35,354 nt of DNA from Bacilli bacterium (GTDB lineage: Bacteria > Bacillota_I > Bacilli_A > ML615J-28 > CAG-313), in assembly GCA_017463365.1 (NCBI GenBank), contig JAFTPH010000064.1, positions 1 through 35,354 on the forward strand. The letters run 5' to 3'. The position numbers were made by a program, and so were the translations under genes. The notes beneath the pieces are model-generated. The model was given only the letters and a program-made list of their open reading frames with translations, searched no databases and was not told the origin of the DNA. Positions within the stretch are counted from its first letter, which is position 1. Every line of letters begins with the position of its first letter. Below are positions 16,271 through 34,986 of the stretch, one piece after another.

Positions 16271-16756
16271 TTAATATTTAGTACTTATTTCATTGTTAGT
16301 TGCTAAAGCATCTTCTTCCATTTTTACGCGCTCAGCAAGTAGTTTTTGTCTAACTTCTTCATTTTTAACACCAATTATTTGTAGTGCTAAATAAGCGGCA
16401 TTCTTAGCGCCATTGATTGCTACTGTTGCAACTGGAATCCCCGGTGGCATTTGCGCAATTGATAATAAAGCATCTACACCATCTAGCACTGATCCACTAA
16501 TTGGTACACCAATTACTGGTAATACTGTCATTGATGCTACAACTCCCGGTAAAGCTGCTGCCATTCCCGCCGCCGCAATAATTACTTCCGTACCATTACC
16601 ATTTGCTTCTTCAATAAAGTTCGCTAATGGTCCATGAGCACGATGAGCTGATAAACAACGAACATCTACTGTTACACCGTAATCTTTTAAAATTGTTATA
16701 GCCGGTTCAACTTTAAGTAAATCACTTTTTGAACCCATAATCACTGCTACTTTCAT
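16271..16756 (-). CDS. purE: 5-(carboxyamino)imidazole ribonucleotide mutase / AIR carboxylase PurE
   Basis: A 161-residue PurE and the first gene after the ZTP riboswitch. It converts AIR or N5-CAIR to CAIR. The N-terminus VAVIMGSKSDL and the catalytic SAHR (36-39) are clear. The following loop reads AAAGMAAALPG (61-71), with Ala68 where E. coli-type PurE has His in GAGGAAHLPG. No purK, which makes N5-CAIR for class I PurE, lies in the operon. Either purK is elsewhere or this variant works on AIR and CO2; sequence alone does not decide. TTTTAGGAGGAAAC precedes the start. Confidence 0.95.
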   Translation of the reverse strand: MKVAVIMGSKSDLLKVEPAITILKDYGVTVDVRCLSAHRAHGPLANFIEEANGNGTEVIIAAAGMAAALPGVVASMTVLPVIGVPISGSVLDGVDALLSIAQMPPGIPVATVAINGAKNAAYLALQIIGVKNEEVRQKLLAERVKMEEDALATNNEISTKY

Positions 16757-16794: not shown

Positions 16795-16823
16795 GGGCGT
16801 AAAAATCCCTATGGATTACGCCC
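16795..16823 (-). terminator. Riboswitch-controlled terminator before purE
   Basis: On the minus strand GGGCGTAA pairs with TTACGCCC, followed by TTTTTGGTTTTTT. The 5' arm begins inside the conserved CCGTCTGGGCG end of the ZTP aptamer, so aptamer folding and terminator formation exclude each other. This is the normal ON-switch arrangement: ZTP bound, terminator prevented, operon expressed. Confidence 0.88.
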
Positions 16824-16888
16824 AGACGGTCGACATTATTACCTTATACTCCCATGTGGTGCACTCCACGATTCCGTCAGTTGTATAA
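16819..16888 (-). promoter_or_regulatory. ZTP (pfl) riboswitch aptamer
   Basis: Read on the minus strand, every element of the ZTP/pfl fold is present. P1 is TTATAC paired with GTATAA. The conserved CTGACGG takes the place of CTGGCG. P2 is GTGG/CCAC around AGTGCA, then the conserved GGGAG. After a linker comes the 3' segment GACCGTCTGGGCG, whose CCGTC pairs with GACGG to form the pseudoknot. It starts at the predicted transcription start of the purE operon and runs into an overlapping terminator. The ligand class is known to sense ZMP/ZTP; control of this operon is inferred from position. Confidence 0.9.
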
Positions 16889-16896
16889 TTACTTAT

Positions 16897-30626: not shown

Positions 30627-30941
30627 TCACTCCATTTCTTGAATTCTCTTTATTAGCTCTAAACAATTTTCATTTTGTTCATATTCTTTAAGTAACTTGT
30701 TTAATTTTTGATCTTTTTCATATAACCCAAGTTTCTTTTCAAATTCATCTAAACTATTTAAAACTTTTTTAATGGTATCGTGTACCGCATTACGAGAAAT
30801 ATTATGTTCTTCCGCAATCTCTGCTAAACTATAATCTTCACCATAATACTCTTCAAACATTGTTTGTTGTTTTTCCGTTAATAACACTCCATAATATCCA
30901 AATAAGATATTATAATAGTTCTTTTTTTCTAAATCAGACAT
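30627..30941 (-). CDS. ylxM: YlxM/p13-like SRP operon DNA-binding protein
   Basis: A 104-residue acidic, all-helical protein with a sigma-70 region 4-like HTH: LTEKQQTMFEEYYGEDYSLA, then EIAEEHNISRNAVHDTIKK (about residues 18-65). It ends in a charged helix. This is the YlxM family, found beside ffh throughout Gram-positives; work in streptococci suggests it modulates SRP GTPase activity rather than acting as a classical regulator. Its ATG overlaps the ftsY stop (TAATG) and ffh follows after 5 nt, so the three are coupled. Confidence 0.93.
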   Translation of the reverse strand: MSDLEKKNYYNILFGYYGVLLTEKQQTMFEEYYGEDYSLAEIAEEHNISRNAVHDTIKKVLNSLDEFEKKLGLYEKDQKLNKLLKEYEQNENCLELIKRIQEME

Positions 30942-31921
30942 TATTCATTCTCCACAAATAATCCATAGATATAATCTTCTAAATCAAAATATTCTAAATC
31001 TTCCATTTGTTCTCCAAGTCCAACAAACTTAATCGGAATATTTAATTTGTCACGAATCGCTAGAACTATTCCCCCTTTACTTGTTCCATCAAGTTTAGTA
31101 AGAATAACTCCAGTAATATCAGTAATTTCACCGAATGCTTCAGCTTGACTCATTCCATTTTGTCCAGTTGTTGCGTCAATCACAAGTAAAGTTTCATGAG
31201 GAGCACCTTCTACTTCTTTGTTAATTACACGATTCATTTTTTCAAGTTCTTTCATTAAATTAACTTTATTTTGAAGACGCCCTGCCGTATCACAAAGTAA
31301 AACATCATAGTTTTCAGCTTTAGCTTTTACTAAAGCATCATAAATTACACTTGATGGATCACTTCCTGCATCTTTTGTAACAATATCAACACCTAATCTT
31401 TTTGCCCATTCAGCAAGTTGATCAATAGCTCCAGCTCTAAATGTATCTCCCGCTGCTAAAAGAATCTTTTTACCTTCTTTTTTTAGACGATAAGCAATTT
31501 TAGCAATTGTTGTTGTTTTTCCTACGCCATTAACTCCTACAAATAAGAAAACACTTAAACCATCTTTTTGAATATTAAGATTGGCATTAACTATTTCATT
31601 TTTTAAGTATAACTCGAACATTTTATCAACAATAATCGGTTGTAATTCAGAAACTTCATGAATACCTTTAACACGTTCATCGTCTTTTAATTCTTCAATA
31701 AAATCTAAAGTTGTTTCTACCCCAATATCAGCCATAATGAAAACATCGGTTAAATCATCAAATAATTCTTCCGTAATTTCATCATATCCTGATAAAACAT
31801 TCTTAAGTTTAGATAAAAAACCACTTCTTGTTTTTTTAAGACCTAAATTATATTTTTTGGCTTTTTCAAGCGCTTCATTTGATGTTTCTTTTTTCTTTTT
31901 AAAAAAATCAAATAATCCCAT
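30941..31921 (-). CDS. ftsY: Signal recognition particle receptor FtsY
   Basis: A 326-residue SRP receptor GTPase. It has a short basic N-terminus (FFKKKKETSNEA) in place of the long acidic A domain of E. coli, a helical N domain, and a G domain with P-loop GVNGVGKTT (129-137), DTAGR (211-215) and TKLDGTSKGG. It docks Ffh-ribosome complexes at the membrane. The short form is usual in Gram-positives, where the amphipathic N-terminus contacts lipid directly. It is the first gene of the SRP operon. A -10 (31953-31958) lies about 30 nt before the ATG, and the candidate small RNA with its terminator lies directly upstream. Confidence 0.97.
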   Translation of the reverse strand: MGLFDFFKKKKETSNEALEKAKKYNLGLKKTRSGFLSKLKNVLSGYDEITEELFDDLTDVFIMADIGVETTLDFIEELKDDERVKGIHEVSELQPIIVDKMFELYLKNEIVNANLNIQKDGLSVFLFVGVNGVGKTTTIAKIAYRLKKEGKKILLAAGDTFRAGAIDQLAEWAKRLGVDIVTKDAGSDPSSVIYDALVKAKAENYDVLLCDTAGRLQNKVNLMKELEKMNRVINKEVEGAPHETLLVIDATTGQNGMSQAEAFGEITDITGVILTKLDGTSKGGIVLAIRDKLNIPIKFVGLGEQMEDLEYFDLEDYIYGLFVENE

Positions 31922-31996: not shown

Positions 31997-32091
31997 AAAA
32001 AAATAGACCTCCCGGTTAAGGGAGATCTAGGAAGGGAAATGTTAATAATAATTAACATTGTGTAGGGGATATGTACACTCTCATCGAGTGC
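31997..32091 (-). ncRNA. Candidate small regulatory RNA (about 95 nt)
   Basis: This is a self-contained transcription unit with no credible open frame. It has a perfect consensus promoter (32098-32126), a predicted start near 32091, and an intrinsic terminator (32004-32029). The RNA would open with an 11-bp hairpin (TATGTGCACTC / GAGTGTACATA, loop GATGA). Next is a single-stranded TCCCCTACAC, a 9-bp hairpin (AATGTTAAT / ATTAACATT), then TTCCCTTCCTAG, and the terminator stem. C-rich single-stranded motifs between hairpins are typical of Gram-positive small RNAs such as RsaE/RoxS, which pair with Shine-Dalgarno sites; that resemblance is by architecture only. It could also be an attenuated leader of ftsY. 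It does not match the SRP RNA core. Confidence 0.6.
32004..32029 (-). terminator. Terminator of the candidate small RNA
   Basis: On the minus strand TAGATCTCCC / GGGAGGTCTA with loop TTAACC (one G-U pair), followed by TTTTTTTC. Confidence 0.85.
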
Positions 32092-32097
32092 ACATAC

Positions 32098-32126
32098 ATT
32101 ATACCAATTTTTTTTACATTTGTCAA
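32098..32126 (-). promoter_or_regulatory. Consensus promoter of the candidate small RNA
   Basis: TTGACA (32121-32126), a 17-bp spacer and TATAAT (32098-32103) with TGG extended -10. It matches consensus at all twelve positions, the strongest promoter in the window. Confidence 0.85.
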
Positions 32127-32152: not shown

Positions 32153-32809
32153 TTATTCTGATACTGTTCCGTTATATGCTTCTTCTGGAATTGTGATTGT
32201 TACATTACCATATTCAGAAAAAGTCATTGTCATGGCATAATTAACTGACATTCCGTCCATTGATAATTTGAAATTAATATCCATAACTGAAACTATACCA
32301 TCTTCAAGAGTTAATTCAACCCTTACATCTTTAAAATCTACCTCACCCATACCTTCAAACATATCACCCATTGAATCTAGTAATCCAGCTAATTCAATGT
32401 CTTCAGCAACATATTTTTCTAGTTCTTCATCATAAACAAAATCTTCTGGAGTTAATCCTTCAAGTATTGATTCTGAGTTAGGGTTTTCTGTTTTTGTGAT
32501 ATACCACTCATTTTCCAATTGTTGATATGTCGTAATAATATTTGTTTCTTCATCAAGCTCTGTATATGAAACAACTTTGCTGCCAAATACATCTATTTCA
32601 GTTTGAGTTTTGTTTCCATCTATTTTCATTAAAACTTCCATACTCATACCACTAACTTCTAAAGTCATTAATACTTGACAACTAGTTTCATCTTCAAATT
32701 TTTCTAACGCTTTGATAAGTTGTTTTTCTTTACTTGCACATCCAGCCAAACTCAATATTAATCCAATTAATAGAACTAATAATCCTAATTTTTTAAAATT
32801 TTTATTCAT
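32153..32809 (-). CDS. Hypothetical lipoprotein, possibly LolA/LppX-like fold
   Basis: A 218-residue lipoprotein. A basic start (MNKNFKKLG), a hydrophobic stretch and a clear lipobox LAGC put the lipidated Cys at residue 24. The mature part is acidic (many Glu/Asp) with alternating hydrophobic strands and the repeated theme of short Met-rich strands: SGMSMEVLMKIDG, ISMD-like turns and MSVNYAMTMTF. Its length and strand pattern recall the LolA/LppX-type half-barrel domains of Gram-positive lipoproteins that bind lipids or hydrophobic ligands; this is a weak fold guess, not a recognised family match. GGAGGAG precedes the start. It is monocistronic, between topA and the small RNA. Confidence 0.75.
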   Translation of the reverse strand: MNKNFKKLGLLVLLIGLILSLAGCASKEKQLIKALEKFEDETSCQVLMTLEVSGMSMEVLMKIDGNKTQTEIDVFGSKVVSYTELDEETNIITTYQQLENEWYITKTENPNSESILEGLTPEDFVYDEELEKYVAEDIELAGLLDSMGDMFEGMGEVDFKDVRVELTLEDGIVSVMDINFKLSMDGMSVNYAMTMTFSEYGNVTITIPEEAYNGTVSE

Positions 32810-32841: not shown

Positions 32842-32863
32842 TTTTAAAATAAATACTAAAAAT

Positions 32864-32891
32864 AAAACGTTCAAATTAATTTGAACGTTTT
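32864..32891 (-). terminator. Terminator of topA
   Basis: A perfect 28-bp palindrome, arms AAAACGTTCAAA / TTTGAACGTTTT, followed on the minus strand by ATTTTT. It starts 7 nt after the topA stop. Confidence 0.85.
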
Positions 32892-32898
32892 AAATATC

Positions 32899-34986
32899 CT
32901 ATTTAGTTTCTTTCTTTTTGCGGTTAGTCTTACATCGTTCATTCCCACAACGAACAGTATCTTCAACTTTAATCATTGGTGAACCACATTCACTACATTT
33001 TTCTCCTGTTGGAAGGCCAGAATATGTTGCGCGACACTTAGGGAATTTGTCACAAGCATAGAATTTCGCTCCTTTATTTCTTCCACGCACATTAATTCGT
33101 TCTACAAGCTCCCCTTCATGACAAAGTGGACATTCAATACCTGTTTTAACGGGATCTGGTTTAACAGCCTTTTTAATGTATTTACAATGTGGATAACCAC
33201 TACATGCGGTAAACTCACCGAATGGGCCTCTTCTTATATATAAAGGTAATCCACAAGTTGGACAAAATTCATCAGTTAGTTTTGGATATAGTTTAACCAT
33301 ATTGTCTCTAGCATTTTCCACAAGTGGCATAAATGTTTCATAAAATTTACGAATTTCTTCATACCAAACAATATTTCCTAAACTGATTTCATCAAGAGTG
33401 TTTTCCATATCTGCTGTATACTTAACATTAATAATACTTGAGAAGAATAAATCAAGTTGTTCACTAGTTAAACGACCTTGTTTACTTGGAACAAATGTTC
33501 TCTTATCCATCGTTACATAACTTCTAAGTCTTAGTGTTTCCATCGTTAATGCGTATGTTGATGGACGTCCAATCCCTAGTTCTTCCATTTTTCGAATTAG
33601 TCTTGCTTCTGTATAACGATGAGGGGGATTAGTGAATTTTTGTTCATATAAAAGTTCATTAAGTGGTAATACTTCTCCTATTTCAAGACTAGGTAAGCGA
33701 CTTAAATCTTCACTTTCATCAATTTTAGCTTCTTCATAAATTTTTAAGAAACCATCAAAAACAACTCTTTCACCTTCTAAGTTAAATAAACAATTATTAG
33801 CTAAAATATTAACTTTTGTATCTTCTACAACTGCATCACTCATTAAAGAGGCTACTGCACGGTTATAAATTAGAGTATATAACTTATATTCATCAGTTGA
33901 CAAATATTTTTTCATTTTTTCCGGTGTTCTTTCAATTGATGTTGGTCTAATAGATTCATGGGCATCTTGAACATGAGCACCTTTTTTGTTTTTATTTTTG
34001 AAACCTTTATAGTAATTCTTACCATAGTTACTTTCAATATGCGATTTTGCTGAAGCAATAAACTCATCAGATAAACGAATAGAGTCTGTACGCATATAAG
34101 TAATTAACCCAACACGTTCTTCTCCTAAATCTATCCCTTCATAAAGTTTTTGAGCAATCATCATTACCCTTTTCGCATTATATTTTAAACGTGCTCCCGC
34201 ATCTTGTTGAAGAGTTGAAGTAATAAATGGTGGTTTTGATGAACGATTACGATTCTTAACATCAATACTATCAATTTTATATTCGGCATTTTGTAATAAA
34301 GAAACAACTTTCATAGCTTCTTCTTCACTATTTAATGCTGATTTACCATCTTGATCTTTAATAAACTTTGCTTTTAAAAGATTGTCATCTTTCTTTAATA
34401 AAGCATGAATATCCCAATATTCTTTTGAATCAAAAGCTTCAATTTCTTTTTCACGATCAACAACTAATTTTAAAGCAACTGATTGAACCCTACCAGCTGA
34501 TTTAGAACCAATTTTTTGTTGAAGTAAACTAGATAATCTAAATCCAATAATGCGGTCTAAAATACGACGTGATTCTTGAGAATGAACTAAATCCATATCA
34601 ATATCACGAGCATTAGGAATAGCATTTAATACCGCATTCTTAGTAATTTCATTAAATACAACCCTTGATACTTTATATGCAGGTTGTTGTAAAACTTCTT
34701 GTAAGTGCCAACTAATAGCTTCTCCCTCACGGTCCGGGTCGGTTGCTAAATATATATGTTCAGCTTTATCAGCAAGAGATTGTAGTTTAGCCACTACATC
34801 CTTTTTCTCTTTTAATACTTCATATGATGGTTGGAAGTTGTTTTCAATATCAACTCCAAATCCCCCTTTACCCTTAATAGTCAAATCACGAATATGTCCA
34901 ATACTTGATTCAACAACATAATCATCCCCTAGATAACGTTCAATAGTTTTAGATTTGGCTGGAGATTCAACAATTAGTAATTTCAT
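32899..34986 (-). CDS. topA: DNA topoisomerase I
   Basis: A 695-residue type IA topoisomerase that relaxes negative supercoils. The Toprim domain has the acidic triplet in ATDPDREGEA (81-90). The active-site tyrosine is Tyr297 in GLITYMRTDSIRLS. The helical core includes HSQESRRILDRIIGFRLS. Three C-terminal zinc-finger modules are visible: CPTC..CSGYPHC, CPLC..CDKFPKC and CSEC..CGNERC, with all twelve cysteines, ending in a basic tail (KTNRKKKETK). Length is normal for Gram-positive TopA. A GAGGAT site precedes the ATG. It has its own promoter and terminator; the usual neighbour dprA is not in view. Confidence 0.97.
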   Translation of the reverse strand: MKLLIVESPAKSKTIERYLGDDYVVESSIGHIRDLTIKGKGGFGVDIENNFQPSYEVLKEKKDVVAKLQSLADKAEHIYLATDPDREGEAISWHLQEVLQQPAYKVSRVVFNEITKNAVLNAIPNARDIDMDLVHSQESRRILDRIIGFRLSSLLQQKIGSKSAGRVQSVALKLVVDREKEIEAFDSKEYWDIHALLKKDDNLLKAKFIKDQDGKSALNSEEEAMKVVSLLQNAEYKIDSIDVKNRNRSSKPPFITSTLQQDAGARLKYNAKRVMMIAQKLYEGIDLGEERVGLITYMRTDSIRLSDEFIASAKSHIESNYGKNYYKGFKNKNKKGAHVQDAHESIRPTSIERTPEKMKKYLSTDEYKLYTLIYNRAVASLMSDAVVEDTKVNILANNCLFNLEGERVVFDGFLKIYEEAKIDESEDLSRLPSLEIGEVLPLNELLYEQKFTNPPHRYTEARLIRKMEELGIGRPSTYALTMETLRLRSYVTMDKRTFVPSKQGRLTSEQLDLFFSSIINVKYTADMENTLDEISLGNIVWYEEIRKFYETFMPLVENARDNMVKLYPKLTDEFCPTCGLPLYIRRGPFGEFTACSGYPHCKYIKKAVKPDPVKTGIECPLCHEGELVERINVRGRNKGAKFYACDKFPKCRATYSGLPTGEKCSECGSPMIKVEDTVRCGNERCKTNRKKKETK

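Follow-up and report, generated by a model that had tools for sequence, protein, structure and literature searches.

A small-RNA gene upstream of ftsY

The window, by which we mean the whole 35,354-nt stretch of DNA analysed, carries a putative small-RNA (sRNA) gene on its minus strand, with topA (32899-34986, minus strand) and ftsY (30941-31921, minus strand) as its conserved upstream and downstream neighbours, respectively, and with a lipoprotein ORF (32153-32809) lying between topA and the sRNA. Directly downstream of topA, a 13-bp inverted repeat enclosing a 4-nt loop (32863-32892) was observed, which is a probable terminator ahead of the lipoprotein ORF. Elsewhere in the window, a ZMP/ZTP riboswitch (16813-16894, minus strand, 53.6 bits) was found directly upstream of the ORF at 16271-16756.

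The predicted sRNA promoter (32098-32126, minus strand) matches the consensus at 12 of 12 positions, consisting of TTGACA, a 17-nt spacer and TATAAT with a TG ahead of the −10 element. Scanning of the window found this to be the sole perfect site, with four others carrying one mismatch. The transcript matched by our final covariance model (R2, see below) spans about 96 nt (31997-32092, minus strand; 74.6 bits, genome-wide E 9.8e-12), and its true 5′ end probably lies at 32091-32095. Folding of 32092-31996 gave three hairpins at −30.9 kcal/mol, compared with −13.2 kcal/mol (sd 2.6) for shuffled sequences (z = −6.8), and none of the 200 shuffles was equally stable.

Hairpin 1 (32069-32097, minus strand; TATGTGCACTC-GATGA-GAGTGTACATA) folds with up to 12 bp around a 5-nt loop, seven pairs of which are modelled, and reaches 11-12 bp if transcription begins a few bases ahead of the usual position. 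It is followed by a C-rich linker 1, TATCCCCTACA (32061-32071, minus strand), the first TAT of which could also pair within hairpin 1 in the window copy. Hairpin 2 (32038-32059, minus strand) is formed by 9 bp of AATGTTAAT/ATTAACATT with TATT between the strands, and the C-rich linker 2 (32030-32037, minus strand) reads TCCCTTCC. Hairpin 3 and its U-tract (31997-32029, minus strand), which were detected by a terminator scan, constitute an intrinsic terminator with a 10-bp stem (32029-32004), a TTAACC loop and a run of TTTTTTT. In the predicted fold, CCCCUACAC is exposed between hairpins 1 and 2, and UCCCUUCC between hairpin 2 and the terminator.

Because ftsY has a promoter-like site of its own (31950-31922, 10/12), the sRNA is regarded as a separate unit. 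These results bear out an earlier note made on this DNA, which gave no strand and had claimed a stand-alone RNA gene of about 95 nt served by a perfect promoter that is the strongest of the window, folding into three hairpins with two exposed C-rich segments and ending in an intrinsic terminator. Taken together, the promoter, terminator, structure and conservation signatures confirm, at the level of sequence, a real minus-strand sRNA gene.

The RNA belongs to a family spread across the class

A DNA-similarity search for the RNA in its own genome returned no match except itself. Using the FtsY protein as query, 80 relatives were fetched, among the nearest named of which was Anaeroplasma bactoclasticum (78% FtsY identity), which marks the window as part of an Anaeroplasma-like genome. 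The topA-ftsY gap at three loci (L014, L016 and L018) held the same design with the same linkers and other hairpin sequences. Since MAFFT misaligned hairpin 3 in the first four members, a hand-padded seed was used to build a covariance model, R1, which served solely to start the search. Besides these three loci, R1 matched others of Acholeplasma-like type, in each of which the RNA lies 650-760 bases ahead of ftsY, and within the order it detected the RNA in 22 of 43 genomes, almost always as a single copy. It was then replaced by R2, which was built from 31 real sequences. Across the class, 395 genomes were searched with R2, of which 77 gave a match at E ≤ 1e-4 (82 at 0.1); the matches belong to at least eight families (f1, f2, f8, f10, f13, f15, f21 and f22). 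The gene thus belongs to an old RNA family that several families of the class share, a point beyond the view of the earlier note. The motif pattern TATYCCCTACA, which was also tried as a family finder, returned true members together with chance matches within genes and was discarded.

Detection among relatives was patchy. Within the Acholeplasma-like family (that of genome G129), 41 of 88 genomes carried the sRNA, and no copy was detected among the 29 small genomes (0.3-0.9 Mb) of a genus that, judged by size, is phytoplasma-like. Within the window's own family, neither R1 nor R2 found it in G001, G003, G004, G005 or G013, which reflects either loss or strong divergence. With a detectable copy missing in most of genus g2, in the phytoplasma-like genomes and in about half of the order, the function of the sRNA would seem dispensable.

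Hairpins covary while the linkers stay

The relatives share one architecture, consisting of hairpin 1, a UUAUCCCCUA linker, hairpin 2, a AUCCCCUU linker (the form of linker 2 in most relatives) and the terminator hairpin. The earlier note had named covariation in relatives as a check on its hairpins, and in an alignment of 60 distinct members, which was fitted to the structure and hence is biased towards it, all 24 modelled pairs showed changes on both sides, with 93.4% of cells paired compared with 34-46% in slid controls. The covariation score was 0.92, versus 0.20 for shuffled and 0.09-0.19 for slid controls. Compensatory changes were found in all seven modelled pairs of hairpin 1 (91% of cells paired), all six core pairs of hairpin 2 (96%) and all nine pairs of hairpin 3 (97%). 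As independent support, a structure-free MAFFT alignment showed compensatory changes in hairpins 2 and 3 but did not recover hairpin 1, and single-sequence folding produced three hairpins in 56 of the 60 members.

While the stems change, being wholly different in sequence between families, the linkers stay nearly invariant. The consensus of linker 1 is CtTATCCCcTA, with the motif present in 60/60 aligned members, and that of linker 2 is tcCCCtT, with at least two C-runs in 60/60 members; the C-rich motifs were 92% unpaired in the folds of members. Promoters are conserved as well: 52 of 61 relatives scored at least 9/12, versus about 11 expected from shuffles, and these sites are sigma-70-like, mostly with a 17-nt spacer and with 10-11 nt, as scored, separating the end of the −10 element from the model start.

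The comparison of members also bears on whether the transcript could be a short message encoding a small peptide. Some members do contain a frame of up to 36-42 codons; nevertheless, the longest possible frame varies from 6 to 42 codons among members, in line with the earlier claim that the RNA has no usable frame, and the stems change in a compensatory manner and differ wholly in sequence between families. We therefore rejected the peptide reading, which is exceedingly improbable.

In the Acholeplasma-like members L133-L149, linker 1 could become hidden if its UAUCC paired with GGAUGC, the 3′ strand of hairpin 1, and RNAalifold on the Acholeplasma-like subset gave a GAUG/UAUC pairing in place of hairpin 1. 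This predicted alternative pairing is possibly a switch, or possibly a coincidence.

Genomic neighbourhood and copies

In the window's family and the Acholeplasma-like family, the sRNA follows topA and is itself followed by ftsY, or by tpx and then ftsY. In family f13, ftsY lies 29-78 bases downstream at three loci, one of which has an intact topA upstream. As the sRNA adjoins topA and/or ftsY in three families, the topA-ftsY gap is likely the ancestral site of one ancestral gene. In family f2, the sRNA is located elsewhere. Some genomes hold 2-4 copies, with up to four in f13 genomes. Two copies in genome G042 (contig C60, 51805-51912 and 52353-52431; L123 and L130) lie on the same strand about 0.5 kb apart, and the second enters masked sequence.

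This variation is informative on whether the element is a cis-acting leader or attenuator of its downstream gene, ftsY in the window. The terminator at the end of the RNA would suit an attenuator, and so would its position, since the gene that directly follows it is ftsY in two families and tpx in a third. However, the downstream gene varies, f2 and the extra copies have neither ftsY nor tpx downstream of the RNA, extra copies occur elsewhere in one genome, ftsY has its own promoter-like site, and an antiterminator alternative was not seen. Because the neighbours change among genomes, a cis element is disfavoured; we consider it very unlikely and rejected it.

The C-rich linkers are predicted to pair preferentially with gene starts

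The reading that we favour, and consider probable, is that the sRNA acts in trans by masking Shine-Dalgarno sequences; we infer its expression, trans action, repression and target set from the sequence data. Under this model, a strong sigma-A-type promoter would produce a transcript of about 96 nt, in which three hairpins would hold two single-stranded segments, UAUCCCC/AUCCCCUU, exposed. These segments would pair with the G-rich Shine-Dalgarno sequences (AGGGGA, AAGGGG and AGGAGG types) of several mRNAs, and the pairing would block ribosome binding and turn down other genes, without Hfq. Hfq was sought in 14 carriers and found in none; in E. coli and B. subtilis, the same search was positive.

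To evaluate the targets, each linker was paired with the −35 to +10 region of every gene in all of G129 (1,496,992 bases, 1377 genes called) and in 900 kb of G200, and decoys were generated by keeping CCCC and shuffling the flanks. At −12 kcal/mol or better, linker 1 paired with 48 gene starts versus 7 mid-gene stretches in G129, and linker 2 with 63 versus 7, that is, a seven- to ninefold preference for gene starts by both linkers. This clear preference supports the Shine-Dalgarno-complementary character that the earlier note had ascribed to the segments. Compared with the decoys, which averaged 50 starts for linker 1 and 29 for linker 2, the two linkers behaved differently. The level of linker 2 was reached by 5 of 40 decoys at −12 and by 1 of 40 at −14 kcal/mol in G129, and by 2 of 40 and 1 of 40 in G200, whereas gene-start pairing of linker 1 was no better than that of its flank-shuffled decoys. 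Of the target prediction proposed earlier for both C-rich segments, the enrichment of gene starts thus stood for both, while a predicted specificity beyond the C-run was observed solely for linker 2. Among orthologue pairs of G129 and G200, 10 had both members as predicted targets versus 5.0 expected (p = 0.017); the predicted targets mostly differed between the two genomes.

Given that linker 1 pairs at decoy level, generic Shine-Dalgarno pairing leaves its strong conservation unexplained, and a protein-binding RNA has to be weighed. CsrB, for example, acts as a decoy or scaffold for CsrA. By this alternative, hairpin 2 would separate the two UAUCCCC motifs, which would serve as repeated binding sites for a protein that recognises single strands, making the RNA a decoy or scaffold. 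Two near-identical exposed motifs with near-invariant flanks (CtTATCCCcTA), beyond what Shine-Dalgarno pairing needs, would fit such a role, as would the decoy-level mRNA pairing of linker 1. Yet two or three sites per RNA are few for a sponge, the C-rich linkers fit the established anti-Shine-Dalgarno pattern of Bacillota sRNAs, and we know of no bacterial protein with a UAUCCCC site. We therefore hold protein binding to be unlikely, and Shine-Dalgarno masking remains the preferred reading.

Two further observations concern target searching. AGGGGA near ATG was tried as a target guide in the window's own genome and abandoned, giving 58 sites versus 32 for the reversed pattern, with few true starts and no common theme. 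In G129, two near-identical copper-ATPase-like genes (g1_746 and g1_1086) are preceded by a CsoR-operator-like palindrome, TACCCCCTACATAGGGGTA, within which CCCCTACA bears a resemblance to the sRNA linker that is probably fortuitous.

khpA as a candidate target

Among the 446 orthologue pairs of G129 and G200, khpA, an RNA-chaperone gene recognised by visual inspection of its sequence (82 aa, KH motif VIGKGGK), ranked first by summed pairing energy and was the only pair with a shared AAGGGGG site. This signal was noted post hoc and then tested in other genomes, with KhpA searched by protein and AAGGGGG-N5-12-ATG by pattern. The pattern ended exactly on the khpA start in G108, G305, G135 and G073, and was not found at khpA in G194, G170 and G217. 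Including G129 and G200, the site is thus present in 6 of 9 genomes of the Acholeplasma-like family, a count that overstates independence as these genomes are related; the motif background is about 1% of genes (16/1377 in G129). Outside this family, AAGGGGG was not found at khpA in G000, G006, G149, G087 and G188, the window's genome included, and no khpA was found near ftsY in the relatives' loci.

By these predictions, khpA is the best conserved target candidate, in one lineage only, and its AAGGGGG could also be a conserved ribosome-binding site unrelated to the sRNA. KhpA has been reported to bind RNAs, including sRNAs, in other bacteria (PMC12456014). A feedback loop between the RNA and KhpA, in which the sRNA of the Acholeplasma lineage would repress khpA via this unusual conserved ribosome-binding site, is a speculative idea that we regard as rather unlikely. 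If true, an sRNA of bacteria without Hfq would set the level of KhpA, a candidate substitute chaperone.

Significance and comparison with known RNA families

Conservation of trans-acting sRNAs past close relatives is rare. The present RNA has been traced to no fewer than eight families of the class, and no Hfq was detectable in the carriers searched. By comparison, RsaE has been described as the only sRNA besides 6S common to Staphylococcus aureus and Bacillus subtilis (PMC4409812). Acholeplasma laidlawii is cultured and its transcription start sites have been mapped (PMC5138195), and post-transcriptional control in Hfq-less bacteria would become directly testable. The covariance model is usable for genome annotation.

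Consistent with the earlier claim that the RNA matches no known family, none of 4227 Rfam families reached its gathering cut-off at the RNA in the window or at 26 member-bearing loci, and no report of it was found in the literature searched, in which the family appears undescribed. The Acholeplasma motif uORFC-13-1 sits upstream of aroF and was rejected as the same element.

A diverged member of LhrC or RsaE/RoxS was also considered. Through shared AUCCCCUUU segments, the Acholeplasma-like member L136 matched LhrC (RF00616) with 28.7 bits (E 0.007) and RsaE/RoxS (RF01820) with 18.6 bits (E 0.35), but these scores fall far below the membership cut-offs of 110 and 79 bits, respectively, the LhrC alignment departs from the helices of this RNA, and the window copy matched neither family at E ≤ 10. 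Membership in a known Rfam family is accordingly very improbable and was rejected.

The closest known systems lie among the C-rich sRNAs of Bacillota. UCCC motifs that bind Shine-Dalgarno sequences are established for RNAIII, RsaE, SprD, FsrA and LhrC (PMC4132741, PMC4409812). RsaE has several C-rich regions that bind Shine-Dalgarno sequences, with no major effect of Hfq (PMC4409812). Like the present RNA, RsaE/RoxS of Staphylococcus and Bacillus is a Bacillota sRNA of about 100 nt with C-rich regions, including AUCCCCUU, and a 3′ terminator hairpin (PMC4409812). However, the Rfam model places its first C-rich region inside a longer-range helix, whereas both lie between separate hairpins here, and no locus was seen in common. 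LhrC1-5 of Listeria is a multicopy sRNA that binds the region around the Shine-Dalgarno sequence through three redundant UCCC motifs and can dispense with Hfq (PMC4132741). Multiple UCCC motifs are also a trait of the present sRNA, and f13 genomes likewise carry it in several copies; in contrast, LhrC has two hairpins with two motifs in loops, and in the present RNA the motifs occupy the linkers between three hairpins. FsrA of Bacillus and other C-rich Bacillota sRNAs, to which no covariance match was obtained at cut-off, follow the same working principle (PMC4132741). With conserved signatures of its own promoter and intrinsic terminator and with exposed UCCC motifs, the RNA has these two features of the functional class, and would represent a new RNA family within a known kind, the C-rich Bacillota sRNAs, whose mechanism we infer for it.
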